From: Tardibacter chloracetimidivorans
GTDB lineage: Bacteria; Pseudomonadota; Alphaproteobacteria; Sphingomonadales; Sphingomonadaceae
Reading direction: 5' to 3'
Length of the DNA stretch: 64,000 nt
Assembly: GCF_001890385.1 (NCBI RefSeq)
Contig: NZ_CP018221.1
Coordinates: forward strand, 434,001 to 498,000
The position numbers and the translations under genes were made by a program. This document shows, one piece after another, positions 1,766-39,516 of this stretch (the first letter of the stretch is position 1; every line of letters begins with the position of its first letter). The notes beneath the pieces were generated by a model, which worked only from the letters and a program-made list of their open reading frames with translations, searched no databases and was not told the origin of the DNA.

Positions 1766-4161
1766 GCCTCTACTCCATAGCCCTTGGCGAGCCAGTCGAA
1801 GGTGCGGCTCACCCCCGACCCGGCTGCATTGAAAAACCTGATGAAAAAGCCCGATGCCGTCTTGCTGGTGACGCTTGCATAATCGCCGGTCGCCAAATTC
1901 TGACCGGTGATCGCTACCGCCGGCACGGCGCGGAACGGCGTCGCAAAGCTCACCGTCATGCCGCCCGCCGGGCAGACGATGTCGTTGCCGCCAAGCGTCC
2001 GGTCGGGCATGTCGACGGTCACTGAAACCGCGACCAACACCGGCGTGACATAGGGATCGCTCGACCGCAGCCGCACCCGCCACTGAAAGGCGCGCGCCGT
2101 GTAATCGCCGATGGTGAAGGTCCGCCAGTCGCCAAAGGCCAGGCCGTCATCGCTGGTGCGAACCTGCAGCTCCACATTCCACGCGGTCGGATCGGCGCCG
2201 TCCCATGATTCCAGCGCGTCGACATCGGGCACCAGGTCAAAGCTGGTGCGCGTGTCCACCCCCGTCGCCTCGATCAGCGCGGTCAGGCGGCTCGTGTAGA
2301 CCGCGCCAAGGTCCAGATCATTGTCGAAATAGTAATAGCCCTCCTCGACAAAGGGAGAGCCGTCGCCGAAATCCACATCCTCGACGGCGTCGAAATCGCT
2401 CCAATTGTCCCAGCTCTGCCCGCCGGAGAGGATCAGCCCAAGCTCGCCCTCGATCACATCATCCCAGACGCCCGCGAAGGCAGGATCCTCGCCGACGGTC
2501 GCCACCAGGTTCAGGGCATTGAGCGTCAGCACATTGACGCTGACGATCGTCGCATTCACCGCCTCGCCGCCGTCGCGGTTCACCGCCTTGATCAGGAAGC
2601 TGCCGTTCATCGCGGGCAGCGAGAATCCGACGGTGTCGATCGACAGGCGCGGCAGCAGCGTGACTGCGTTGGGCCATTCCGCCCCGGTCACCACCGGCTG
2701 ATATTTGACCAGATAGTGGCTCAGCCCGTTGCCCGAAACGGGCTTCAGGCTGAAATGGGCGGTGTTGCCAAGCACGTTGACGCCGAATTCCTCGATATCG
2801 GGCGGCGTGTCGACCGTGATCAGCGATCCCGGTGCTTCCTCGTGCACCGTCCAATAGGTGCTGTTCGGCGGGGCATTGCCGGCGCTTGCCACCGGATTGA
2901 TGTAGCGATAGCGGCGGCCGTCGCTGGGCTGGCGCACGATGCTGCCCTCGCGGTAGATCCGCGTCGCGTCATAATCGCCCAGATCCTGGAGCGTGGCGGT
3001 GACCGCGATTTCCGAATAGGCGTGGATCCGCGCGGTGCGCGTTCCCTTCATCTGCATCCGCCAGAACGGCGGGGCGACCTCCAGCTGGGCGGGCTCGCCC
3101 GCGATCGGCAGGGCGCTGCCGTCCGTCTTCAGGGTCAGCGACGCCGAATTGCTCAGCATCACGCGGCAGGCGAACAGCTTGCCCATCAGGCTGACGCCGG
3201 CGACGGCGTTGGCCGATCCGGCGATTTCACCGATCGCATCGCGCGGCGTCGTCTGCTCCCCGAAATAGCGCGACAGGTTGCGCGGCACCGCCGTATCGAG
3301 CGCGGTGAGCGAGGCGCTGTCGATCTGCCCGGCCGAAGCGCCGGCGATCTCGGCAAGCCGCTTGATGACGGCGCCGGGCGTGCGCACGAAGCCGCCGGAA
3401 CCGCCGCTGTCGCCTTCCACCATATAGCTCAGCACGCCTTCGGGCGGCGCGCCGTGCCGGACCATGCCGACGGCCTTTGCCGTTGCATATTGGCCGGGCG
3501 CGATGGTGGCGGCGACCAGCGCAGCATAGCTTGCATGATCGGCGATCGGCGCGCCGAAGCGCACCAGTCGGTCCATCGCCACCGGAACGGCGTTGATCGC
3601 GCCATAGCCGTGGAGCTGCACCACCGTGTTGACGCTGTCGATCAGCTGCCCCTCGACATAGCGCGGCGCGCCGATCGCAAGCGGCTTTGCCACGCCCTTC
3701 TTTTCAGCAGGACCTTCCGCGCCGGTGGTGCCTTCATAGCTTTCCGTCAGCAGCGGCCCATCCAGCCAGTCGTCATTGACGCGAAGCTGCAGGGCGATCC
3801 GCCCCCCTTCCACCCGGGCGGTGCGCACCAGCCCGTCGAAGATCTGGGTGAACCCGCCCCAGGCCGCGCCAAGCTCGCCGATCCAGATCCGGGCGGGCCT
3901 GTCGCCCCAGGTATAGCTGGCGGCGTCGGGGAACACGTCGAGCGACAGTTCCATGTCGCCGCCGCCGGGCGTCATCCGGCCTGAAAAGCCGCCGTCGAAC
4001 AGGCGCAGCGACAGGCGCGGCAGCCGGGCGATTCCGGGCCACCAGGTGACGGCGTTCAGCGCGGTGAGCGCCGCATTGTCATGACTGCACGCACGAAGCG
4101 TCACGCTGGATGCGGCCGACGGGTCGAACGGCTCCAGCTCCACCAGAACGGCCAGCGTCAT
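1762..4161 (-). CDS. Tail tip / host-specificity (J-like) protein
   Basis: 799 aa. The ATG at 4161 overlaps the upstream stop (ATGA). Position after the tape measure and two small tail genes, the large size and multi-domain build point to the central tail-tip protein. The N-terminal ~350 residues are beta-rich and lack a motif I know. Residues about 480-560 look fibronectin-III-like (YLVKYQPVVTGAEW). The C-terminal ~60 residues (PAVAITGQ, then GDYASV and FDWLAKGYG) match a short domain that often ends alphaproteobacterial J-like proteins. It should bridge the tail tube end and the fibre encoded next. Family naming is inference from context and style. Confidence 0.7.
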   Translation of the reverse strand: MTLAVLVELEPFDPSAASSVTLRACSHDNAALTALNAVTWWPGIARLPRLSLRLFDGGFSGRMTPGGGDMELSLDVFPDAASYTWGDRPARIWIGELGAAWGGFTQIFDGLVRTARVEGGRIALQLRVNDDWLDGPLLTESYEGTTGAEGPAEKKGVAKPLAIGAPRYVEGQLIDSVNTVVQLHGYGAINAVPVAMDRLVRFGAPIADHASYAALVAATIAPGQYATAKAVGMVRHGAPPEGVLSYMVEGDSGGSGGFVRTPGAVIKRLAEIAGASAGQIDSASLTALDTAVPRNLSRYFGEQTTPRDAIGEIAGSANAVAGVSLMGKLFACRVMLSNSASLTLKTDGSALPIAGEPAQLEVAPPFWRMQMKGTRTARIHAYSEIAVTATLQDLGDYDATRIYREGSIVRQPSDGRRYRYINPVASAGNAPPNSTYWTVHEEAPGSLITVDTPPDIEEFGVNVLGNTAHFSLKPVSGNGLSHYLVKYQPVVTGAEWPNAVTLLPRLSIDTVGFSLPAMNGSFLIKAVNRDGGEAVNATIVSVNVLTLNALNLVATVGEDPAFAGVWDDVIEGELGLILSGGQSWDNWSDFDAVEDVDFGDGSPFVEEGYYYFDNDLDLGAVYTSRLTALIEATGVDTRTSFDLVPDVDALESWDGADPTAWNVELQVRTSDDGLAFGDWRTFTIGDYTARAFQWRVRLRSSDPYVTPVLVAVSVTVDMPDRTLGGNDIVCPAGGMTVSFATPFRAVPAVAITGQNLATGDYASVTSKTASGFFIRFFNAAGSGVSRTFDWLAKGYGVEA

Positions 4162-5324: not shown

Positions 5325-5460
5325 CGTTCACCCCCACATATTGCCGATAATGATAGCGCAGCCATGGCCGCTGCCGAACCCTGCCGCACGAGCGGGTGAT
5401 CATCAGCCCGGTCGCCTTGCCGGTGCCGGTGCCGACCCCGATGAACAGGCCATAGGTCAT
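5311..5460 (-). CDS. 49-aa small tail-region protein
   Basis: Read directly from the sequence. The ATG at 5460 overlaps the tape-measure stop (ATGA) and the TGA at 5311 lies inside the next gene, so it is chained to both neighbours. The product starts MTYGLFIGVGTGTGK, has one Cys, and carries a basic, aromatic C-terminal half (RQRPWLRYHYRQY). The overlaps support real translation and filling an otherwise empty 130-nt gap adds to this. Function unknown. Confidence 0.55.
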   Translation of the reverse strand: MTYGLFIGVGTGTGKATGLMITRSCGRVRQRPWLRYHYRQYVGVNDARP

Positions 5461-8400
5461 TTCACGAAACTTAGATTAAGCGCGCTCAGGCCCCCGAAGC
5501 GGCGTAGAAAATCAGCCAGCATTGCCGTGTTCTGCTGAAGGGCTCCCACCATCTGTGCGGTGTTGGTCGCCGTTGCCTGGGCGGCGTTGGCCGTGGCCTC
5601 GGCAAAGGGGTTTTCAAAGGTCTTCGGATTGTTCTCGGCGGTCGATATCGCCAGTCCCAGAAGGCTCTGGACGCGCTCATAATCCTTAAAGAACGCATCG
5701 GTCGAACCGTGAAGGCCCCGGCTGACATCCAGATATTGCTGCGCCGCTTCGCTGAACGCATCCTGGTCGATCGATTTTCCGGCCCTGATCGCCTTTGCGA
5801 ACGGATCGAATGCTGCCCGCGCCGCCGCTTCCTGGTCACGCAACGACAACGGCGAATTGGACCCGATTTTTAGGCTCTCCTGAAAATCCTTCAGCGTCTG
5901 CGCATTGCTGCCCATGCGTTCAACCAGCGCCTCGCGTTCTTTATTGAACAGCTTTTCGGCATCGGCATATTGCTTCGCGGTCGCGCCGCCCTCATCCAGC
6001 GCCTTTTTGATCTTGCGGAATTCATCCACCAGCCCGTCCATCGCCGCACCCAGCGGATCGTCGATCGCCTTCAGCCGCTTCGGGATCGATTCGATCAGCG
6101 ACGCCTTGGTGATCGCCGCTTCCAGGTCATCCGATGACCGCAGGATCCGCTCGGCCGCCGCCGATATCCCCTTGATCGCCCCGTCGGCGATGGCGTCGCG
6201 GATGGCGAATTCTATGGCGGCCTGCTGATCGCCTTCAAAGCTGACCGCGCCATTTTTCATCTTCAGCGACGTGCCACGGGTGTTGACGCGAAAATCGTCG
6301 CCGCGTGTGCCGATGGTGACGTTGAACGCGCCCGCCTCGCCGCCCAGCGCATCGATGATCCGGGCGAGTCCCTCCTGCACCGATCCGCCAAGGCCGGACG
6401 CCGCACCGTAATTGCCCTTGTCGGCGCCGGCGACGTTCAGCCCGTCAAGCCCCGTCACCTGCGCGCGGGCGGTGCGATTGCCCTTGAGCAGGCCACCCAG
6501 CACCGAACCAAGCGCCGCGCCGATTCCGGCGCCGATCGGGCCTCCTGCGATGAACCCGCCGATCCCGCCGATCGCCCCGCCGGTGCTGCTGGTCTTCAGG
6601 CCGAACATGCCCGGCAGGCTGGTGCCGATCGCCGCCGCGCCCAGCCCGGCCCCCAGCGATCCCAGCACGCTGGAGATCGCACCGGTCGAGGCAATACCCG
6701 GCGTGCCGAAGACCGTCCCGTCAGGAAGCGTGTTGGTGATGGCGGCAAGCGCATTGTTGTCACTGACGCCAAAGACGCGGTCGAGGCTGCGTCCAATGTT
6801 GATGCCGCCATCGAATTCGCCCAGCCCGCCCAGACCGCCAGCGCCGCCGCCGAACAGCACGGACATCAGCCCGGTCGGGCCGGCCCCCTGCGGCATCCCG
6901 ACGGCATTGCCCGACAGGAAGCTCAGCGTCCATTGCGCGGCGAGATCGGCAAGCGCGCTCAGGCCCCGGCGCTTGAAATTGTCCCAGATGTTGCCGCCCT
7001 GGCCTGAGAATATGTCGTAATAGATATCGCCCAGGTCGCGGAACACGTCCTCGGCGTGGCGCCGCTGCTCCTCCAGCGCGGCCTCGGCCGCCCGCGCCTG
7101 TTCCTCGGCTTCGCGCTTCGCGTCGGCATCAGCCTTCTTTTTGGCCTCAAGCGCCTGTTCCTGCTTGACGATCTCGATCGTCTGACGTTCGAGCACGGCC
7201 AGCTGCTCGGCCGATAGATCCTTGTTGGACTGCCGGACCTGGAAGAGCCGATGTTCAAGCTCGGCCTGCGCCTCCTGGCCCTGCAATTTCAGGTCAAGCG
7301 CATGCAGTTCGGCGGCGTTGGCCTCCTCCTGGCGGCGGAAGCTTTCATCCCGGGCGCGGCGTTCTTTCTCTGCGGCCTCCGCCGCGCGCTCGGCGGCCTT
7401 GGCGGCCTTTTCGTCTTCATCGGCGGCCGCGCCCGGTCTGCGCTTCGGTAGAGAATTATCGGAGGCAGCTTTATCGTTGAGAGCCGCGGCTGCGTCGCGC
7501 TTCCGCGCCTCGGCCTTCGACGCCTCCACACCTCTGTCGAAACGCCCCTTGAGATCATATTCGGAATCGTCAACACGCGGCAGCACGCCCCCCAGACCCA
7601 AGCCTTCGACAACGCGATTATATTCGCGCTTCGCCGCCCGATATGGCGCGTCCGCGAAATTGAGCAGCGCGTCAATCGTGCCAAGTTCGCGGCTGATCGC
7701 GTCGCTAAGCGATGCGGCGCTGGTGCCGATCTGTGAGAACACCCACTGCGCACCGGCCAGCAGCGGCTCGAATGCGTCGGCGAGCCCTTCAAAGCTGGCC
7801 CGGACTTCAACGCCGGCTTCCCGCGCGTCGACGGCGAGCTGCTCGAAGCCGTCCGACCCATCCGAGACGAAGTTCGCGATCGATGAACTGAATTGGCCGC
7901 CCTGATCGAATTCGCCGAAGACGGTCAGCGCCGCATTGTAGATCTTCGTCGCCGCCTCGCTGAAGGCCACCGGCAGCTGCTTGAATTCTTGGTCGAGTCC
8001 GGCGGTGAATTTTCTTTCCGTAAACGCGGCCACCAGCTTGTCGGCCGTCAACTCGCCATCCTCGGCCATTTTGCGCAACCGGCCGATCGGCACGCCCAGG
8101 CTGTCTGCCAGCAGCTTTGCGAGGCGCGGCGAATTCTCCATCATGGAATTGAATTCGTCGCCGCGCAGCACGCCCGAGGCGAGCGCCTGCCCCAGCTGGG
8201 TGACGCCGGCGGCGGCGGATGCGGCCGACCCGCCACTGACGCGGATCGCCTTGTTGACCGTTTCCGTCGCCCGCGCGATCTGGTCCTGGCTGATCCCCAG
8301 CTCCTGGCCGTTGCGCGCCATGGAGGCATAGAGCTCAGCCGTTGCGCTCAGCGAGGTGCGCGTCTCGCCGGCGATCCGCCGCACATCGGCCTGCGCCTTG

Positions 8401-8660
8401 CTGAACGATCCGCTTTCGGCCGTCGCCAGCCGCAGGCGCGACGTGATCGTCGCATATTCATCGGCAAGCTGCCCGAGCTCACGCGCGCCGATCGCAAGCC
8501 CCAGGCCGCCAGCGAACGTCTTGATCCGGCTGAAGGCGCTGTTGATCTGGCTTGCGGTGCGCTCGACACGCGTTTCGACGGTGCCCAGCTCGCGGTTGAG
8601 CTCGCTCGAAAACTGCTGCGCGTTGAGCTTCAGCCGTGCTGTGATGTCGGCGTCGGACAA
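5457..8660 (-). CDS. Tail tape measure protein
   Basis: 1067 aa, the longest phage gene here. Residues about 1-215 resemble the tape-measure N-terminal domain family (SINSAFSRIK-like start, GVLRGDEFNSMMENSP, LRKMAEDGELTADKLV). Residues about 400-540 are Ala/Glu/Lys/Arg-rich and predicted long helix or coiled coil. Residues about 600-740 are Gly-rich and hydrophobic with GxxxG repeats, the usual membrane-interacting part. The protein sets tail length and occupies the tube lumen; the length implies a long siphovirus tail. It follows the chaperone frameshift pair and a DUF6441-like gene, as expected. Confidence 0.93.
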   Translation of the reverse strand: MSDADITARLKLNAQQFSSELNRELGTVETRVERTASQINSAFSRIKTFAGGLGLAIGARELGQLADEYATITSRLRLATAESGSFSKAQADVRRIAGETRTSLSATAELYASMARNGQELGISQDQIARATETVNKAIRVSGGSAASAAAGVTQLGQALASGVLRGDEFNSMMENSPRLAKLLADSLGVPIGRLRKMAEDGELTADKLVAAFTERKFTAGLDQEFKQLPVAFSEAATKIYNAALTVFGEFDQGGQFSSSIANFVSDGSDGFEQLAVDAREAGVEVRASFEGLADAFEPLLAGAQWVFSQIGTSAASLSDAISRELGTIDALLNFADAPYRAAKREYNRVVEGLGLGGVLPRVDDSEYDLKGRFDRGVEASKAEARKRDAAAALNDKAASDNSLPKRRPGAAADEDEKAAKAAERAAEAAEKERRARDESFRRQEEANAAELHALDLKLQGQEAQAELEHRLFQVRQSNKDLSAEQLAVLERQTIEIVKQEQALEAKKKADADAKREAEEQARAAEAALEEQRRHAEDVFRDLGDIYYDIFSGQGGNIWDNFKRRGLSALADLAAQWTLSFLSGNAVGMPQGAGPTGLMSVLFGGGAGGLGGLGEFDGGINIGRSLDRVFGVSDNNALAAITNTLPDGTVFGTPGIASTGAISSVLGSLGAGLGAAAIGTSLPGMFGLKTSSTGGAIGGIGGFIAGGPIGAGIGAALGSVLGGLLKGNRTARAQVTGLDGLNVAGADKGNYGAASGLGGSVQEGLARIIDALGGEAGAFNVTIGTRGDDFRVNTRGTSLKMKNGAVSFEGDQQAAIEFAIRDAIADGAIKGISAAAERILRSSDDLEAAITKASLIESIPKRLKAIDDPLGAAMDGLVDEFRKIKKALDEGGATAKQYADAEKLFNKEREALVERMGSNAQTLKDFQESLKIGSNSPLSLRDQEAAARAAFDPFAKAIRAGKSIDQDAFSEAAQQYLDVSRGLHGSTDAFFKDYERVQSLLGLAISTAENNPKTFENPFAEATANAAQATATNTAQMVGALQQNTAMLADFLRRFGGLSALNLSFVK

Positions 8661-8681: not shown

Positions 8682-9377
8682 TCAGAGCTCGCGCTCGGCG
8701 CGTTGCGCGGCGAGACGGGCATAGCCGGTGAATCGTGACGCCAGACGCCCGGAAAAGGGCGCCAGCGTCTGTTTGATCGAAAAGCGCTGCTGCACGTCGA
8801 CCAGCGGCAGCAATACGAAGATCGGCACGGACGCATGGCGTCCCTGCTCGATCCGCCGCGCGGTCGCCTTGCGGAATCGGCCGCTGCGCATGTTGATCGC
8901 GCCGGGGGCGACCAGCAGTGCGGGCTTTCCCCGGCGATAGACGAACTGCAGGCGAATGCCCGTCCGCCGCTCCCATTCGCCGGGCGTCAGATCCTGGCCC
9001 CGCCGACGCGGCCCTGCCGCCGGCAGCGGGATCGCCAGATACTGCCCATAGCTGCCCGAGATCCGCGCACCACGGGCATAGGCGGCCATCGCCCCCTGCG
9101 ACCGCTTGCGCCCCTTGACATAGATCGAACCGACAGGCTCCCGCGCACGTCCGCGCTCGGGATAGATCTCGCTCGCCCATGCCCGGGAAAGACGGCCCAG
9201 CCCGGCGCTGGCCGTCACCTGCTCAAGCGCCTTTTCCGCCTCGCGCGTGGTTTCACGCACGGCGCGATAGGCGGCCTCCAGCACATATTGATCGACCAGC
9301 GCCATGTGCCGCCGGAACCTTTCGGTCTCGAACAGCATCGAGAAGCCGGGCCGGCTGATCGTCGAACGACGCGCCAT
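8682..9377 (-). CDS. DUF6441-like phage tail protein
   Basis: 231 aa, basic. It sits between the tail chaperone and the tape measure. Residues about 65-125 (SEIYPERGRAREPVGSIYVK, then SQGAMAAYARGARI) and the Arg-rich LRxxARxx pattern resemble a phage family I know as DUF6441. No enzymatic motif is visible. Its ATG at 9377 lies directly behind the stop (9378-9380) of the -1 frame tail chaperone extension, so translation is likely coupled. The role may be tail assembly or tube completion, but that is only from position. Confidence 0.7.
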   Translation of the reverse strand: MARRSTISRPGFSMLFETERFRRHMALVDQYVLEAAYRAVRETTREAEKALEQVTASAGLGRLSRAWASEIYPERGRAREPVGSIYVKGRKRSQGAMAAYARGARISGSYGQYLAIPLPAAGPRRRGQDLTPGEWERRTGIRLQFVYRRGKPALLVAPGAINMRSGRFRKATARRIEQGRHASVPIFVLLPLVDVQQRFSIKQTLAPFSGRLASRFTGYARLAAQRAEREL

Positions 9378-10213
9378 TCACATATCCTCGGCAAATGCCT
9401 GCGCGACGATGGCGAATGCGTCCATCAGCCCGGCAGGCTGATCGCCGACGCCGCCCGCTGCCGGCAGCAGGCGACCGCCAAAGCCGCCCGACTGGCATTG
9501 CAGCCAGAGATCGACGATCGCGAAGTAGCGAGGGCTCAGGACGTAGCGGGGGTTTTCCGGCCAGACTTCCCCGTCGATTTCCCATCCGCGGGGGACGCGC
9601 TGTCCGAATTCGAAGTCTCTTGGCTTTCGCCGGACCCGGACAGCGCAGCGGAGTTTTTTGCGTGGCCCCCGCCATAGAGCATGGCATAGGCCTCGTTTCC
9701 GACGGTGCGGATGTCGAGCGGATGAACATGCGCCAGCGCCGCTTCGGCAACCTTTTCATCGGCGGTGAACGCTATCTTGCCGGGCACCGCATCGTCCCAG
9801 CCCTTCACGAACCACATGAAGGCCACCAACGGCAAAATGCTCCCGCGCTGGACCTGCCGTTCCTGCAGGATCCGGAATTCGGGCCAGGCATTGGCCATCA
9901 GGCGCTCGGTCTCGACCAGCAGCGCTTCGTCTTCCTTGCTCAGTTTTTCGGCCGCGCGGGAGAGACGGATCACCTCCAGCAGCCGCGGCTGATCTTCCTT
10001 CTCGGCGAGCGCGCGGACGCCGTCCGCCAGCGCGTCGCACAGCTGGAAATGATAGACCTTGGGCGCCCGCCAGCGGGCCGCCAGCTCGGCCTCGAACAGC
10101 TCGCGCTCGACGACGCCGCCGGGCTTGATCTGGAACGTCGCCGCCTTGCCGTCATAGCCCTTGATGGGCGACGTGAAGGCAACCAGCGCGGTTGAAAGTG
10201 CAATGTCGGTCAC
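9378..10213 (-). CDS. Tail assembly chaperone G-T, product of -1 ribosomal frameshift
   Basis: Predicted 278-aa product. The first 187 codons are shared with the G protein and end HAKN at the heptamer A_AAA_AAC (9653-9659). After a -1 slip, 91 further codons stay open to the TGA at 9378. The extension has no ATG, GTG or TTG start before its ATG at codon 77 and carries a WPENPRY...FAIVDLWLQCQ stretch, similar in flavour to lambda GpT-like extensions. Lambda and most long-tailed phages make G and G-T this way between the tail tube and tape measure genes. The frameshift is inferred from sequence, not measured. Confidence 0.75.
9536..10213 (-). CDS. Tail assembly chaperone (G protein, zero-frame product)
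   Basis: 225 aa, ATG at 10213, TGA at 9536. Lies between the tail tube and tape measure genes, the usual chaperone position. Residues about 40-150 are helical (FEAELAARWRAPK, ALAEKEDQPRLLEVI), then FVKGWDD. The last 38 residues after the slippery site are Ser/Gly/Lys-rich and look like non-structural tail, which is common in G proteins. It binds nascent tape measure protein in related phages. The zero-frame stop is embedded in the -1 reading frame extension. Confidence 0.8.
   Translation of the reverse strand: MTDIALSTALVAFTSPIKGYDGKAATFQIKPGGVVERELFEAELAARWRAPKVYHFQLCDALADGVRALAEKEDQPRLLEVIRLSRAAEKLSKEDEALLVETERLMANAWPEFRILQERQVQRGSILPLVAFMWFVKGWDDAVPGKIAFTADEKVAEAALAHVHPLDIRTVGNEAYAMLYGGGHAKNSAALSGSGESQETSNSDSASPADGKSTGKSGRKTPATS
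9653..9659 (-). promoter_or_regulatory. -1 programmed frameshift slippery heptamer
   Basis: On the minus strand the zero frame reads GCA AAA AAC, which gives the canonical X_XXY_YYZ heptamer A_AAA_AAC. The -1 frame stays open for 91 codons beyond it and ends 1 base before the next gene's start codon. I did not find a strong downstream stem by eye. Confidence 0.75.
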
Positions 10214-11490: not shown

Positions 11491-11919
11491 TTATTGAAGC
11501 GCCGGGTCCGTCCGGCGCGCGAAGAACTGGATTTCAGCCATGAGCACGAAGCCGAGCGTGCGAACCTCGGCGAATTGAGCTGGCTGGATGGTAAGATCGC
11601 CCTCGTTGAGATCGTCGGCGATCCCGCCAAAGCTGTGATCGGCCGTCAACGCGGAGATCGTGCGCGAATAAAGCGCGGTCAGCGCCTTTCGCGCATCGGC
11701 CCCGCCATCGCCCTGAACATGGCCCTCGATCAGAATGTTCATGGCATAGAGCGTGACCTGCGGCCCCTCCTGGATCACACGTTGCCCCCGATCCTCGACC
11801 CCAAGCCAGGGAAAGGTGTCCGGGTCGCCCACGGGCGTATCTTCGACTGTGACGCCTTGGAGCGCCTGAAGACAGGCAACGACTGCACCGAATATCCGGT
11901 CGCGGATGGCTTCCGTCAT
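11491..11919 (-). CDS. Tail terminator protein (gpU-like)
   Basis: 142 aa. It opens with a helix (MTEAIRDRIFGAVVACLQAL), followed by alternating strands (VTLYAMNILIEGHV) typical of minor tail/tail terminator proteins. It lies between the head-tail completion gene and the tail tube gene. Its ATG overlaps the upstream stop (11916-11919). In related phages this protein caps the finished tail and joins it to the head. Confidence 0.7.
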   Translation of the reverse strand: MTEAIRDRIFGAVVACLQALQGVTVEDTPVGDPDTFPWLGVEDRGQRVIQEGPQVTLYAMNILIEGHVQGDGGADARKALTALYSRTISALTADHSFGGIADDLNEGDLTIQPAQFAEVRTLGFVLMAEIQFFARRTDPALQ

Positions 11920-23606: not shown

Positions 23607-23887
23607 ATCGCAGCCATCCTTCCACATTTGGCGCAAAGCTTCCGCGAAAGGCGCGATCCTTCCACGATCAAACCATTGTTTTCATTGAAGGTTGGAAGGT
23701 TATGGAAAGATAGGAAGGTTATATGTGACCCGTGCTTTACGCATGCGCGCCTGCGCACACACGCTAGGAGCGGCGGGCAGACAAAACCCTTCCTATGTTT
23801 CCACAACCTTCCAAAGCCGCAGAAATTCGCGACTTTCGAGAAGCCTCTAACCTTCCATTTTTGGAAGCTTGGAAGGATCGTCACCAT
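23603..23887 (-). CDS. Possible 94-aa protein between primase and DUF6362 genes
   Basis: The start ATG at 23887 overlaps the primase stop and the stop overlaps the next ATG (ATGA), as in coupled genes. The product is basic with many Phe, Lys, Arg and Cys. However the same DNA carries a near-perfect 29-nt inverted repeat and GGAAGG motifs, which argues for a regulatory or origin role. It may be both or only the latter. Confidence 0.35.
   Translation of the reverse strand: MVTILPSFQKWKVRGFSKVANFCGFGRLWKHRKGFVCPPLLACVRRRACVKHGSHITFLSFHNLPTFNENNGLIVEGSRLSRKLCAKCGRMAAI
23692..23814. repeat. 29-nt inverted repeat with GGAAGG motifs, candidate replication origin
   Basis: The left arm 23692-23720 and the right arm 23786-23814 match in inverted orientation at 26 of 29 positions, with a 65-nt spacer. 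Each arm holds three spaced GGAA-type units (GGAAGGTT, GGAAA, GGAAGG). Further CCTTCC/GGAAGG units lie at 23850-23880. Iterated motifs beside a primase-helicase gene suggest an origin or autoregulatory site; not proven. Confidence 0.55.
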
Positions 23888-26577
23888 TCATCCCCCACAT
23901 CATCGGGTCTGAATGTGCCGCCCCCGCTGTAATCGTCCGGGCCATCGTCGGGCCTGCGATCCTCCAGCGGCCGTCCATGTTCGTCGACGAAGTCGCTCAC
24001 CTGCTTGATGAGCTTCACGTCTTTCCACTGCATCCCGTTCGACCTGAGCTTCCGCCAGCCTCGATCGAGCAGCGCCGACGACAGGCCCTTGGGCGACCAT
24101 TCCTTTTCGCCGGCGGACTTGCACCAGGCGGAGAAGACCGCGTGCAGCGCCGACGCGCCGATCCGCTGATCGCGCTCCTCGACGACGCACAGGCCGAGGA
24201 ACTGCCCCAGCGGGTCACTGTCCGCCCGATAGCGCGATGTCGCCTCATCCACCTCTTCAGGCGGCTTCAGCCCATGTTCCATCCAGTCGAGCAGCCCGGC
24301 CAGCAGCCGGTTCAATATGCCCGCGCCTTCGGCCTGCAGCTTTTTGGGCAGGTCGCGGTCCACCTCTTCCTTCGGGATCGTCACCTGCCACGGCACCAGC
24401 AGCATGCGCCGCCAGATGCCTTCGTCCGTGCCGTCGATCTTCGGGCGGTAATTGCCCGAGATCGTCAGCTTGAACTTGATGATGAGCTTGAAGAAATCCT
24501 TGTTCAGGTGGCGCACGTCCACCGGCTCGCCGCCCGTCACCAGCTTGATCAGCGCTTCGGCCAGCTTCGCGCCCTTTTCCGGCTCCGATGCGCGCAGCAG
24601 GCGCACGCCGGTCAGCTTGGCGAGATCGGGCGTCGCGTCGCCGCCCTTGCGCTGGCGGCCCTGGTCCATCAGCGAATTGATCGGCACCGTGTCGGAATAG
24701 TCGCCCGCCAGCCATGCCAGCGCTTCCACCCAGGTCGATTTGCCGTTCCGCCCGGTGCCATATCCGAACACCAGCTTCTGGTCGCTCACATCGTCGGTCA
24801 GGCTCAGACCGCCCCATGCATGCAGGAATCGCCGCGTCGCCTCATTGGGCTGCACCCGCTCCATGAATGCGTCATAGTCCGGGCTTGCTGCCTGCGGATC
24901 ATAGATCACCCGCGCAATCTTGGTGATCCTGTCGGCGGGATCGTGCCGCGTGAAGCGCACCCTGGGCTTGCCGTCATCGCCCTTGCCGACGCGGATGGTG
25001 CCGTTCAGCACGTTGATCGCGAACGGATCGACGTCGAAATCGTCGACGTCCACTTCAAGAAATGGCTGGGCCAGCCTTGCGATGCAAGCCAGATGCCCCG
25101 CGCCTTCGGACACCCGGCCCCATTGCGCTATCTTGTCGGAATACCAGGTGATGGTCCCGTCGCGGGCCACCTTCACGATGAAATCCAGCCCGCCATCATC
25201 GCGGTGGCCGGATGCCTTCACCAGCTCGGCTTCATCGCCGATCGCCCGCACCGTGTCATAGACGGCGCGCTGCACCAGCGCCTCGGCGGCATGGCTGTTC
25301 CAGCGTTTGCCGTCCCAGGCGAACCAGCCGATCGCCGGGCACCACAGGAATCGCCCGCCAAACCGGTCGCGGAACCGCTCGGCATTGCCCAGGTCGGTGA
25401 GCGGATAGAACGCCAACTTGCGGTCAAGTTCATCGTCCCCCCGCCCCCCAGCTGGTGGAGAAGGCGGTGGCCCTTCCATTTGGAAGCTTGCCGGTTGGCC
25501 ATCCCCATCGGGAGGGGGTGCGGGGGAGAAGCCGAAATCGTCCGCGCTGTCGGGCGGCGGCGGCTCGGGCCTTTGCACCGGGCTGAGGCCAGCTCCCGTC
25601 CTTCCACCACGACGTTGCCCGCGCGCAGCAGCAGCGGACGCGATCTCGCTGAGATCGCGCGGTTGTTCGATTCCGGCCGTCAGACCGCTTTCGATCGTCC
25701 CTTCCGATTTGGGATAGTCCGGCCACGCCCTGGCGGCGTCCTGCAGCGCCGCACGCACCAATGAGATCGGCAGCGCACCCGCGCCCACCAGCTGGCCCAG
25801 CGCATAGGCCGAAGCGTTCAGCTGATTGTTGCGGGTGCCGTCGGGCGCGCCCTGCACCGTGCGGATCTCGCCGTCCAGCGCCGCCATCGCATATTTGCGC
25901 ACGGCATCATCCACCTGGCCCTGCACATCGGGCTGGGCGGCGCGCTTCACATCACCGGATGGCTTGCGTTCGCCTTTGCCCTTGGTTCGCAGGATCTCGA
26001 CCAGCACCGGCGGCGCTTCGGCCGCTTCGGCCTGGTCCTCCCCCCGCAGCCAGCGATAGCCGATGCCGTCGGCGCGTGACGATGGCGGCGCGATCACATA
26101 GCCGCCCTCGCCACGCACATCGACATGGCGCGGCAGATTGCCCCGGTTGCGGATCGGCTCACCTTCGGGCTGGCGCAGATAGACATGCACCCCGCCCGAT
26201 GGAGTCACCACCGCCAGCGACGCCGGCAGCGCGCAGCCCATCTGGGTTTCCAGCTCTGCTTTCAGCGTATCGAGCGTGAAGACCTCGCCGGTTTCGTCAT
26301 CGATGCGCGGGTCGAAATCGAGCGCGAACAGCCCGTTCCGGCCCATGGCGAGGCCGATCATCGCGTTCGGCCATTTCGTCCACCACGCCTGCACCTGGTT
26401 CGCGTCGCAGCTCGCCGCCGACACGCCGCCCGTGCCCCGGATCGGCTTGCCCTCGCCGTCGCGCCGGGCCGCGACCAGCGGCTGCTTGTTCTCGGGAGAA
26501 CAAGGGAAAACCGGCCAGCCACGGGCGGCAAAATCCTGCGCCGCAGAAAGCAGCGTGTTGTCACTCGGCACTGTCAC
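23881..26577 (-). CDS. Primase-polymerase / D5-type helicase
   Basis: 898 aa. Residues about 10-200 are a bifunctional primase-polymerase domain (ARGWPVFPC, GLFALDFDPRID with the metal-binding Asp residues). Residues about 250-420 are linker, partly Pro/Gly-rich. Residues about 560-760 are a D5-type SF3 helicase: Walker A GTGRNGKST near 606 and the SGNYRPKIDGTDEGIWRR segment near 705. The protein primes and unwinds phage DNA during replication. It lies 6 nt after ssb in the early minus operon. Confidence 0.92.
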   Translation of the reverse strand: MTVPSDNTLLSAAQDFAARGWPVFPCSPENKQPLVAARRDGEGKPIRGTGGVSAASCDANQVQAWWTKWPNAMIGLAMGRNGLFALDFDPRIDDETGEVFTLDTLKAELETQMGCALPASLAVVTPSGGVHVYLRQPEGEPIRNRGNLPRHVDVRGEGGYVIAPPSSRADGIGYRWLRGEDQAEAAEAPPVLVEILRTKGKGERKPSGDVKRAAQPDVQGQVDDAVRKYAMAALDGEIRTVQGAPDGTRNNQLNASAYALGQLVGAGALPISLVRAALQDAARAWPDYPKSEGTIESGLTAGIEQPRDLSEIASAAAARGQRRGGRTGAGLSPVQRPEPPPPDSADDFGFSPAPPPDGDGQPASFQMEGPPPSPPAGGRGDDELDRKLAFYPLTDLGNAERFRDRFGGRFLWCPAIGWFAWDGKRWNSHAAEALVQRAVYDTVRAIGDEAELVKASGHRDDGGLDFIVKVARDGTITWYSDKIAQWGRVSEGAGHLACIARLAQPFLEVDVDDFDVDPFAINVLNGTIRVGKGDDGKPRVRFTRHDPADRITKIARVIYDPQAASPDYDAFMERVQPNEATRRFLHAWGGLSLTDDVSDQKLVFGYGTGRNGKSTWVEALAWLAGDYSDTVPINSLMDQGRQRKGGDATPDLAKLTGVRLLRASEPEKGAKLAEALIKLVTGGEPVDVRHLNKDFFKLIIKFKLTISGNYRPKIDGTDEGIWRRMLLVPWQVTIPKEEVDRDLPKKLQAEGAGILNRLLAGLLDWMEHGLKPPEEVDEATSRYRADSDPLGQFLGLCVVEERDQRIGASALHAVFSAWCKSAGEKEWSPKGLSSALLDRGWRKLRSNGMQWKDVKLIKQVSDFVDEHGRPLEDRRPDDGPDDYSGGGTFRPDDVGDEW

Positions 26578-37737: not shown

Positions 37738-37862
37738 AGCCCGCCGCCGCCCCCTTGCAGCGCCAGCCGGACGAGGCCATTCTCCGCCTCGCCAGGGCGC
37801 TCGCACGCGCAGCGGCGAGAGAGGATCACAGACGGCTTCAGGATGAACGCGATCAGCACTAA
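37734..37862 (+). CDS. 42-aa protein preceding the integrase
   Basis: GTG start overlaps the previous TGA; its TAA lies 20 nt inside the integrase gene. Basic, helical (AILRLARALARAAARED). Small genes in this place sometimes act with serine integrases as directionality factors, but there is no direct sign here. Confidence 0.5.
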   Translation: MKPAAAPLQRQPDEAILRLARALARAAAREDHRRLQDERDQH

Positions 37863-39483
37863 GGCGGCGATCTACGCCCGGTTTTCAACCGAACTCCAGA
37901 GCGACCGCTCGATCGACGATCAGGTTGCGCTGTGCCGGGCCTTTGCCGAGCGCGAAGGTCTGGAAATCACGGCCGTCCATTCCGATCGCGCGCGCTCCGG
38001 CGGCTCGCGTTTCGGTCGCGAAGGGCTCGATGCGCTGATGGAAGACGCACGCGCCGGGCGGGTGGGCGTGGTCATCGTCGAGGCGCTCGATCGTCTCTCG
38101 CGCGACATGGAGGATCTCGCCGGCATCCATAAGCGGCTCACCTTCCAGGGCGTGCAGATCCGCGCGGTGCACGAAGGCGCGGTGAACACTGTTCTGGTGG
38201 GCCTGCGCGGCCTGATCGGCCAGCTCTACCGCGAGGACAATGTTCACAAGATCAGGCGCACCATGGCGGGCATTGCGCGCGACGGCCGTTCCGCCGGCGG
38301 GCGCGCCTATGGCTACCGGCCGTTGCCGGGTAAGCCGGGCGAGCGTGTGATCGTGGAAGAGGAAGCGGCGATCGTCCGGCGCATCTATGCCGAATATCTG
38401 GCCGGAAGGACCCCGCGCGATATCGCTTGCGGCCTCACCAAAGACGCGGTTCCGGCACCCTTCGGGGCGCGCTGGAACGCCAGCACCATCGTTGGTTCGC
38501 GGGCGCGGCAGAACGGCATTCTGCACAATCAACTCTATGCCGGCAGGCAGGTCTGGAACCGCGTGCGCATGGTCCGCGACCCCGACACCGGCAAACGTGT
38601 ATCGCGCGAGAATCTACCCGAAGAATGGACGATCACCGATGTGCCGGCGCTGGCGATCGTTGACAGCGACACCTTCGCTGCCGCCCAGGCGCGGCTGTTG
38701 GCGCGGGGCGGCGCGCGGCCATGGGAAAAGCGTCGCCCGCGCCGCATCCTTTCCGGGCTGCTCAGGTGCGGCGCATGCGGTGCGGGCATGTCCACGATGG
38801 GAAAGGACAAATCCGGACGTACCCGCATCAGGTGCACGGCCCAGGCCGAGCGCGGCGACTGCCCCGATCCGGCGACCTTCTATCTCGACACCGTCGAGAA
38901 GGCGGTGCTCGACGGGCTGCGCGGCGAGCTTGTTCACCCGACCATCATGACCGAATACGTTCGCGAGTACCACGCCGAACGGCAGCGACTGGCGGCTGAC
39001 ACCATCTCGCGACGGGCGGATATCGAACGGCGGCTCGCCGCGATCGACAAGGAAGCCGAACGCGTTACCGATTGGCTGGTGAAGGGCGTGGGCGACGTCG
39101 ACCGCCTCGATCGGCGGGCAAAGGAACTGATGGTCGAAGAATCCGCGCTGCGCGAGCAACTGGCGTCGTCTGGCGAAGCCCCGAACATCGTAACCCTGCA
39201 TCCGCAGGCGCTTAAACGCTACGAGCAGCAACTCGGTGAATTGCACAGCGCGCTCGGCCGCGCGCTGGAGCACGGCGTACAGGAAGCCGCCGACGCGGTG
39301 CGCGACCTGGTCAGCAGCATCACACTCGCCCGCGCCACCGACGGCGGCATAGCAATCGATATCGAAGGACGTCTCAACGCTTTGCTTGGCCCCGTCGCCT
39401 ACCCCAACAGCCGCCACACAGCCGTGTCGGGGGGGGTGATGGTAGCGGAGGAGGGACTTGAACCCCCGACACGCGGATTATGA
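37843..39483 (+). CDS. Large serine integrase
   Basis: 546 aa. Residues about 7-150 are the resolvase catalytic domain: Ser15 in ARFSTE, then DRLSRD near 83 with catalytic Arg. Residues about 160-270 are the recombinase domain (GYRPLPGKPGERV). A zinc ribbon follows: LRCGACGAG near 309 and CTAQAERGDC near 330-338. Residues about 370-450 form a coiled coil. The last 13 residues (VAEEGLEPPTRGL) are translated from the antisense strand of the tRNA-Met 3' end. It integrates and, with a helper, excises the phage. Confidence 0.93.
   Translation: MNAISTKAAIYARFSTELQSDRSIDDQVALCRAFAEREGLEITAVHSDRARSGGSRFGREGLDALMEDARAGRVGVVIVEALDRLSRDMEDLAGIHKRLTFQGVQIRAVHEGAVNTVLVGLRGLIGQLYREDNVHKIRRTMAGIARDGRSAGGRAYGYRPLPGKPGERVIVEEEAAIVRRIYAEYLAGRTPRDIACGLTKDAVPAPFGARWNASTIVGSRARQNGILHNQLYAGRQVWNRVRMVRDPDTGKRVSRENLPEEWTITDVPALAIVDSDTFAAAQARLLARGGARPWEKRRPRRILSGLLRCGACGAGMSTMGKDKSGRTRIRCTAQAERGDCPDPATFYLDTVEKAVLDGLRGELVHPTIMTEYVREYHAERQRLAADTISRRADIERRLAAIDKEAERVTDWLVKGVGDVDRLDRRAKELMVEESALREQLASSGEAPNIVTLHPQALKRYEQQLGELHSALGRALEHGVQEAADAVRDLVSSITLARATDGGIAIDIEGRLNALLGPVAYPNSRHTAVSGGVMVAEEGLEPPTRGL
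39440..39483. other. Probable attachment-site region (tRNA 3' end inside integrase gene)
   Basis: The integrase stop at 39481-39483 lies inside the intact tRNA-Met gene. The prophage abuts the tRNA 3' end, so the attachment core should fall within the 3' half of the tRNA. The partner copy is outside the window. Confidence 0.6.
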
Positions 39484-39516
39484 TTCCGCTGCTCTAACCA
39501 GCTGAGCTACTCCGCC
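39440..39516 (-). tRNA. tRNA-Met (CAT), elongator
   Basis: 77 nt with encoded CCA. Acceptor stem GGCGGAG/CTCCGCT with one G-T pair; D arm GCTC/GAGC; anticodon arm GCGGA-ATCATAA-TCCGC with anticodon CAT; T arm closing TTCAAGT. The acceptor and anticodon stems lack the initiator features, so elongator Met is preferred. tRNA-Ile2 (CAT) cannot be excluded by eye. Confidence 0.93.

Follow-up and report, generated by a model that had tools for sequence, protein, structure and literature searches.

The question raised by positions 9378-10213 of the window, i.e. the whole 64,000-nucleotide stretch of DNA that was analysed, is how two overlapping minus-strand reading frames, offset by a single base, are expressed. 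The preliminary description had proposed that a ribosomal slip joins them into a tail chaperone fusion beside the shorter product of the first frame. According to the analysis presented here, a programmed -1 frameshift very likely produces a 278-aa G-T protein beside the 225-aa G protein, and a chaperone role is likely, because of the -1 register, the conservation of the heptamer, and the gene order. Taken as a whole, the reading that a slip at A_AAA_AAC yields a minority of G-T beside G, and that both act as tail assembly chaperones like those of phage lambda, is held with high confidence. The mechanism as such is well known (lambda G/GT type), and the pair in the window is very probably another case of it in a prophage. 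The coordinates of all features are given in Table 1.

Table 1. Tail genes, slip site and candidate stimulators in the window.
Feature	Position	Strand	Remarks
Tape measure protein gene	5457..8660	-	matches PHROG tape measure families
DUF6441 protein gene	8682..9377	-	PF20039, E 8e-26; directly after T
T extension, -1 frame	9378..9652	-	91 codons + TGA; conserved domain
Predicted G-T product, 278 aa	9378..10213	-	length computed; production predicted
Gene G, zero frame	9536..10213	-	225 aa; GTG start, GAGGAG upstream
Two-frame overlap	9536..9652	-	zero frame encodes a 38-aa Ser/Asp/Gly-rich G tail and the stop
Stem, 3' arm	9596..9606	-	pairs with 9637..9647
Stem, 5' arm	9637..9647	-	11 bp, last pair G-U; starts 5 nt past the heptamer; candidate downstream stimulator
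Slippery heptamer A_AAA_AAC	9653..9659	-	zero frame GCA AAA AAC; equivalent place in relatives
Shine-Dalgarno-like GGCGGGGG	9666..9673	-	6 nt before the heptamer; candidate upstream stimulator
Probable tail tube gene, 411 aa	10225..11460	-	directly before G; named from its place; no Pfam match
Tail terminator gene (lambda U position)	11491..11919	-	phrog_4204, E 3.4e-07

The -1 frame of the window is open from 9755 and, in the reading of the ORFs, ends with the TGA at 9380-9378 on the minus strand, immediately followed by the ATG of the DUF6441 gene at 9377. The heptamer described before was found exact to the base in the zero frame, and the 91-codon extension does end one base before the next start. 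Recomputation of the lengths gave the same values for G and for the predicted fusion. It had also been stated that the extension lacks a plausible start codon of its own, which agrees with the absence of ATG, GTG and TTG near its beginning. Such codons occur in the -1 frame of the window at 9425 and 9383 only, both late in the T domain, and the first ATG comes 234 nt after the heptamer begins, within the conserved domain.

Judged from the window sequence alone, the heptamer is mildly unusual, which is suggestive but not decisive. Among 6,129 zero-frame positions in 13 minus-strand ORFs, picked by the analyst as phage genes, X_XXY_YYZ heptamers occurred seven times, and the one at the junction is the sole A_AAA_AAC of these seven. 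In 5,000 synonymous resamplings, the heptamer was retained at its site in 1.5% of the cases, while an A_AAA_AAN or G_GGA_AAN anywhere in gene G was obtained in 15.2%. Chance is ruled out by the comparison with relatives, since an X_XXY_YYZ heptamer is kept at 62 of the 63 distinct junctions, the window counted.

These relatives were collected by several searches. With the single G protein as query, matches came from 8 of the 298 genomes searched within the family (the window's own counted), and none from genome contigs, viral contigs or named phages. Profiles of G and T were built from nine loci of the family-level matches, and the T profile yielded 14 loci in genome contigs and 43 in viral contigs. 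As seed, both contig scans used a single peptide pattern around QPA, well away from the heptamer. One or two residues encoded by the heptamer (the last of G, the first of T) did enter the profiles, which leaves the site not entirely outside the search, although it did not serve as a search key. Across the order the T profile matched 6 of 396 genomes, and across the class the G profile matched 5 of 385, the window's own counted in each. The first eight relatives showed identities to the window of 41-50% for T and 31-40% for G.

The resulting census comprises 77 loci, including the window's own and some duplicates, all with a T match. Both halves were recognised in 75 of them, and in 75 of these 75 the T part is in the -1 frame relative to G. 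L071 and L072 gave no G match, yet both show an open zero frame and A_AAA_AAC at the junction. After removal of identical junctions, 63 distinct loci remained (window included), comprising A_AAA_AAC in 30, G_GGA_AAC in 28, A_AAA_AAA in two, and A_AAT_TTT, C_CCT_TTG and no heptamer in one each. Heptamers were counted if they lay at most 36 nt before or 12 nt after the expected place, and all of the 62 lie exactly there except those of L054, L059, L062, L065 and L074. A phylum search of 299 genomes with a larger T profile gave four matches, one of them the window itself and the other three new and partial. With matching register they carry A_AAA_AAC, A_AAA_AAC and A_AAA_AAG, and having been found after the counting they stand outside the 63.

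A missing heptamer in a locus that retains both frames, which according to the preliminary description would refute the frameshift, was observed in one of the 63 distinct loci and in none of the other 62. This junction, identical in two viral records (L046 and L048), retains the -1 register and both frames. There, the -1 frame becomes open only shortly ahead of the site, and nothing but a TTTT run looks slippery. Tentatively, this may be a weaker site served by a single tRNA, or else one in decay. The heptamer-free junction lies near 3998-4004.

The genes of the window stand in the order tail terminator, probable tube, G, T, DUF6441 and tape measure, and this order was constant across the 63 distinct loci wherever the parts were found. 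Homologues of the window's genes were found in 60 of these loci for the tube, in 58 for DUF6441, in 45 for the terminator and in 17 for the first 400 residues of the tape measure protein, many of the locus stretches being too short to reach the outer genes. The earlier placement of the pair between tube and tape measure genes holds as to the order, but DUF6441 (9377-8682) intervenes between T and the tape measure gene. DUF6441 starts no more than 240 nt from the end of T in 54 of the 58 loci. In L014, L037, L041 and L051 the two are separated by 519-770 nt, which leaves room for an extra gene, and no DUF6441 homologue was found in the searched stretches of L058 (97 nt after T), L065, L071, L075 and L076. 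The literature searched contained no mention of DUF6441.

Compared to lambda, the pair shares the place after the tail tube gene, the -1 register, the heptamer near the end of G, and the two products. It differs in its A-site codon, which is AAC and not AAG as in the lambda site G_GGA_AAG (read from the sequence), in the extra gene between T and tape measure, and in a longer zero-frame tail past the site. The alignment to lambda that had been suggested gave no sequence match to lambda G or T; such pairs are reported to have little sequence in common (excerpts of PMC5009743). The chaperone gene of Rhodobacter phage RcKemmy, annotated as a joined gene, shows the same order of tube, G and G-T with the site G_GGA_AAC; its G is smaller and its T is cysteine-rich. 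The RcKemmy genome likewise carries a homologue of the window's DUF6441 protein (L078 3860-4504, annotated as minor tail protein), located not after T but behind the head-tail attachment gene and ahead of the next minor tail gene. DUF6441 appears to be a relocated tail gene of unassigned role, standing after T here and after the head-tail attachment gene in RcKemmy.

In Synechococcus phage MinM1, the T homologue (41% identity, E 8e-10) is followed by DUF6441, and the junction GCA AAA AAC TGA has the right phase. However, its T (L080 83-403) is annotated as hypothetical from an internal start without a frameshift, and its G runs past the end of the record. The frameshift reading explains how such a T gene can appear in records as unknown or with an erroneous start. 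The public records of MinM1 and Sc-Yong805-1 both seem to mis-annotate the module. In the latter (L079 5101-6039) a "tyrosine recombinase" stands, by position, in the place of the tail tube gene before a G-like ORF with A_AAA_AAA.

Neither 46 G members nor 46 T members gave a Pfam match at an E limit of 0.01. At the same limit PHROGs gave none for T and two marginal single-member matches for G, phrog_8155 (E 0.0036) and phrog_17827 (E 0.0092). The pair would accordingly add a chaperone family unmatched in Pfam to a conserved phage mechanism. A profile-based PDB sequence search with G and T showed no credible match. The AlphaFold models were usable, with a mean pLDDT of 92.8 for G and 81.7 for T, and neither had a Foldseek match at E 0.001 or better, with the PDB covered for G. 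Some of the BFVD entries for G are named tail assembly, tape measure or pre-tape-measure chaperone, none of them significant. The top three VIA-align structures for G were YqbN (3klu, Z 5.7), which we take to be a member of a tail chaperone family, a protein of a V. cholerae PICI-like element (5ir0, Z 5.0), and the HK97 tail assembly chaperone (2ob9, Z 4.5), all with Z values below the level of trust advised for the tool. Alone these values would not carry the chaperone claim. A chaperone function of G and G-T is likely from gene position together with the weak fold resemblance.

A real frameshift whose products serve a role other than tail assembly chaperoning would fit the missing direct backing of chaperoning by a family profile or a significant fold match. 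It is nonetheless considered improbable, as the pair in the relatives follows the probable tail tube gene and precedes the tape measure gene, the two-product logic speaks for chaperones, and chaperone structures are among the best, though weak, VIA-align results for G.

The fusion could also arise without any ribosomal shift, if RNA polymerase slipped on the A run and the resulting mixed mRNA encoded G-T. Six consecutive A are present in the window and seven in L054 and L065. However, runs within the heptamer do not exceed three in the 28 distinct loci with G_GGA_AAC, where place and register are unchanged, and polymerase slippage is regarded as very unlikely compared to a slip of the ribosome.

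The ribosomal slip also agrees with the pattern of conservation after the site, where the -1 frame is the conserved one. For 790 pairs of loci with at least 60% identity over the 60 nt after the site, the mean amino-acid identity reached 0.639 for the -1 frame, compared to 0.471 for the zero frame and 0.458 for the +1 frame. Mismatches were most common at the third position of the -1 codons (0.371 vs 0.267 and 0.290). Within the first 19 codons, none of 62 loci showed a stop in the -1 frame, compared to seven in the zero frame and six in the +1 frame. Since the -1 frame is the conserved one, the zero-frame G tail looks like a by-product of the T code. In seven of the 62 loci the zero frame has its stop directly after the heptamer and the G tail is absent, and consequently T can be reached there only via a slip or a separate start.

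Such a separate start, with T made as a protein of its own by re-initiation, could be provided in nine of 62 distinct loci, where an ATG, GTG or TTG of the -1 frame lies no more than 60 nt from the heptamer, and it corresponds to the annotation of the MinM1 record. Against this, 53 of the 62, including the window, have no such start within this distance, an initiation at the first -1-frame ATG of the window would cut into the conserved domain, and the heptamer would be left without explanation. We give re-initiation even less credit than polymerase slippage. A broken gene or a sequencing error, to which the single base between the frames might point, can be dismissed as the least probable origin of the split, as many genomes and viral contigs share the -1 arrangement, and the protein is conserved to either side of it.

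Altogether, register, heptamer, neighbourhood, the missing start codon and the conserved -1 extension agree with the lambda-type G/G-T frameshift proposed before. From the sequence, its conservation and the gene order, we infer the slip, its rate, the stimulators and the function of the proteins as follows. Most ribosomes would read G to its own stop, resulting in the 225-aa protein. A smaller share of them, carrying tRNA-Lys at AAA and tRNA-Asn at AAC, would slip back by one base, both tRNAs would re-pair on AAA AAA, and 91 further codons would be translated to give the 278-aa G-T. The rate of slipping may be raised by a G-rich upstream stretch pairing with the 3' end of 16S rRNA, and likewise by a strong stem just downstream. 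By analogy to lambda, G would bind the tape measure protein during tail assembly, while the T part of G-T would recruit tail tube subunits.

Excerpts of PMC5009743 describe the lambda mechanism with a ratio of G to G-T of 30:1 and the G/G-T frameshift as widely conserved despite low sequence similarity. For the g-t genes of haloarchaeal HCTV the same excerpts give G_GGA_AAC and A_AAA_AAC sites; their hosts are archaea, unlike that of the window, and the likeness concerns the sites. According to excerpts of PMC5009743, E. coli ribosomes slip far less at A_AAA_AAC than at A_AAA_AAG, and slipping in the window may accordingly be modest. Measured frameshifting amounted to 6% and 7% in two genes belonging to a tail chaperone cluster (excerpts of PMC3711429). 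The parts seen of PMC10885494, PMC3711429 and PMC8601537 treat the tail chaperone frameshift as a common device, and the last of these also names RcZahn as a phage in which the frameshift lacks clear evidence. A literature search for sphingomonad phages with such a frameshift brought up PMC2920897 and PMC8785237 as the only titles.

The codons of the site show a distinct pattern. The A-site codon is AAC in 58 of the 63 distinct loci and the enteric AAG in none. Among the 62 heptamers, the A-site half AAAC is present in 58, while the P-site triplet is AAA in 33, GGG in 28 and CCC in one. On a quick tree of 61 G+T rows, from which the heptamer-coded residues were excluded, the two main heptamers (56 rows) require at least nine changes of state, compared to a mean of 19 after shuffling. 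Three of these changes are forced by strongly supported branches, and the stops right after the site need three changes, on a tree that gave a warning of long branches meeting and has 17 weak branches among 58 inner ones. The absence of intermediates between the two forms is partly due to construction, since the list took only loci with a full heptamer; the sole heptamer-free distinct junction (L046/L048) is not an AAA/GGG intermediate either.

What would lift this case above the ordinary is an explanation for the dominance of AAC and the switching of the P-site half. Tentatively, the slip signal may be built and tuned unlike the enteric model, with AAC and tRNA-Asn nearly fixed, the P-site triplet switching between AAA and GGG, selection keeping the full site through three-base changes, and the rate depending on codon identity and Shine-Dalgarno-like pairing more than on one conserved stem. 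This is a possible reading, held with less than even confidence.

Two causes residing in the tRNAs were considered. A loss of queuosine as the cause of AAC was rejected, as tRNA-guanine transglycosylase is present in most of the genomes searched: it was matched in 193 of 197 genomes of the order and in 14 of 17 module-bearing genomes. The window's own genome, in which no match was found, is one of the three without. This genome also showed no tRNA-Asn among the 37 tRNAs found, for which reason its assembly may lack pieces and is probably incomplete. A dedicated tRNA-Lys(CUU) behind the avoidance of AAG is unsupported, as a CTT anticodon also occurs in G1075, the host of L124, the one A_AAA_AAG locus. 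The window's genome has two tRNA-Lys genes with the CTT anticodon and one with TTT, and CTT-anticodon genes are present in six other hosts of AAC loci (G093, G219, G323, G796, G898, G1003). The tRNA scan covered 17 of 30 fetched loci, and in the two G1024 loci it found no tRNA.

Regarding the upstream stimulator, pairing with the 16S 3' end peaked at a mean of about -5 kcal/mol in 8-mers whose first base lies 11-14 nt before the heptamer, compared to -0.5 to +0.8 kcal/mol at 40 to 21 nt upstream. A second dip at -6 to -3 was discounted, as it overlaps the heptamer itself. The mean best value of -6.04 exceeds the synonymous expectation of -5.05 modestly, and a value of -5 or lower was observed in 44 of 62 loci vs 26 by the control means. 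Since the synonymous expectation is beaten only modestly, part of the signal is attributed to the encoded residues.

For the downstream side, folding of the mRNA, which had been proposed as a check, was favourable for the window in part. The 78 nt from the heptamer on gave a z of -3.06, with an extra 5-bp helix pairing the 5 nt between heptamer and stem with bases further downstream, but the z depends on the stretch chosen (+1.69 and -1.8 in one comparison, +1.36 and -2.7 in another). Across the family, the 50 nt from 12 nt after the first base of the heptamer showed a mean z of -1.56 vs dinucleotide shuffles, with 23 of 62 loci under -1.5, and a 70-nt stretch a mean z of -0.89 compared to -0.09, -0.45 and -0.23 for control stretches. 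Against synonymous resampling in the -1 frame there was no excess of folding across the family (mean z 0.03 and -0.04), and RNAalifold gave no common structure for the relatives. On both grounds a conserved downstream stem was rejected. A short hairpin, picked by eye on an alignment consensus (A5; 43 loci, 42 distinct rows; 19 of the 62 loci excluded), was paired in 78.9% of cells vs 56% in the synonymous control, and none of 300 draws was as high. Since the control breaks the relatedness and the hairpin was chosen after looking, it is taken as a lead only. The window does not form this hairpin and folds into another stem.

Two further features of the window concern the prophage around the tail genes. 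A large serine recombinase ORF at 37843-39483 on the plus strand ends inside the tRNA-Met gene at 39440-39516 on the minus strand, and the region 37843-39516 is a likely prophage end and attachment site. At 23881-26577, a primase-polymerase with a D5 N-terminal-like domain was found, a replication protein of phage type.
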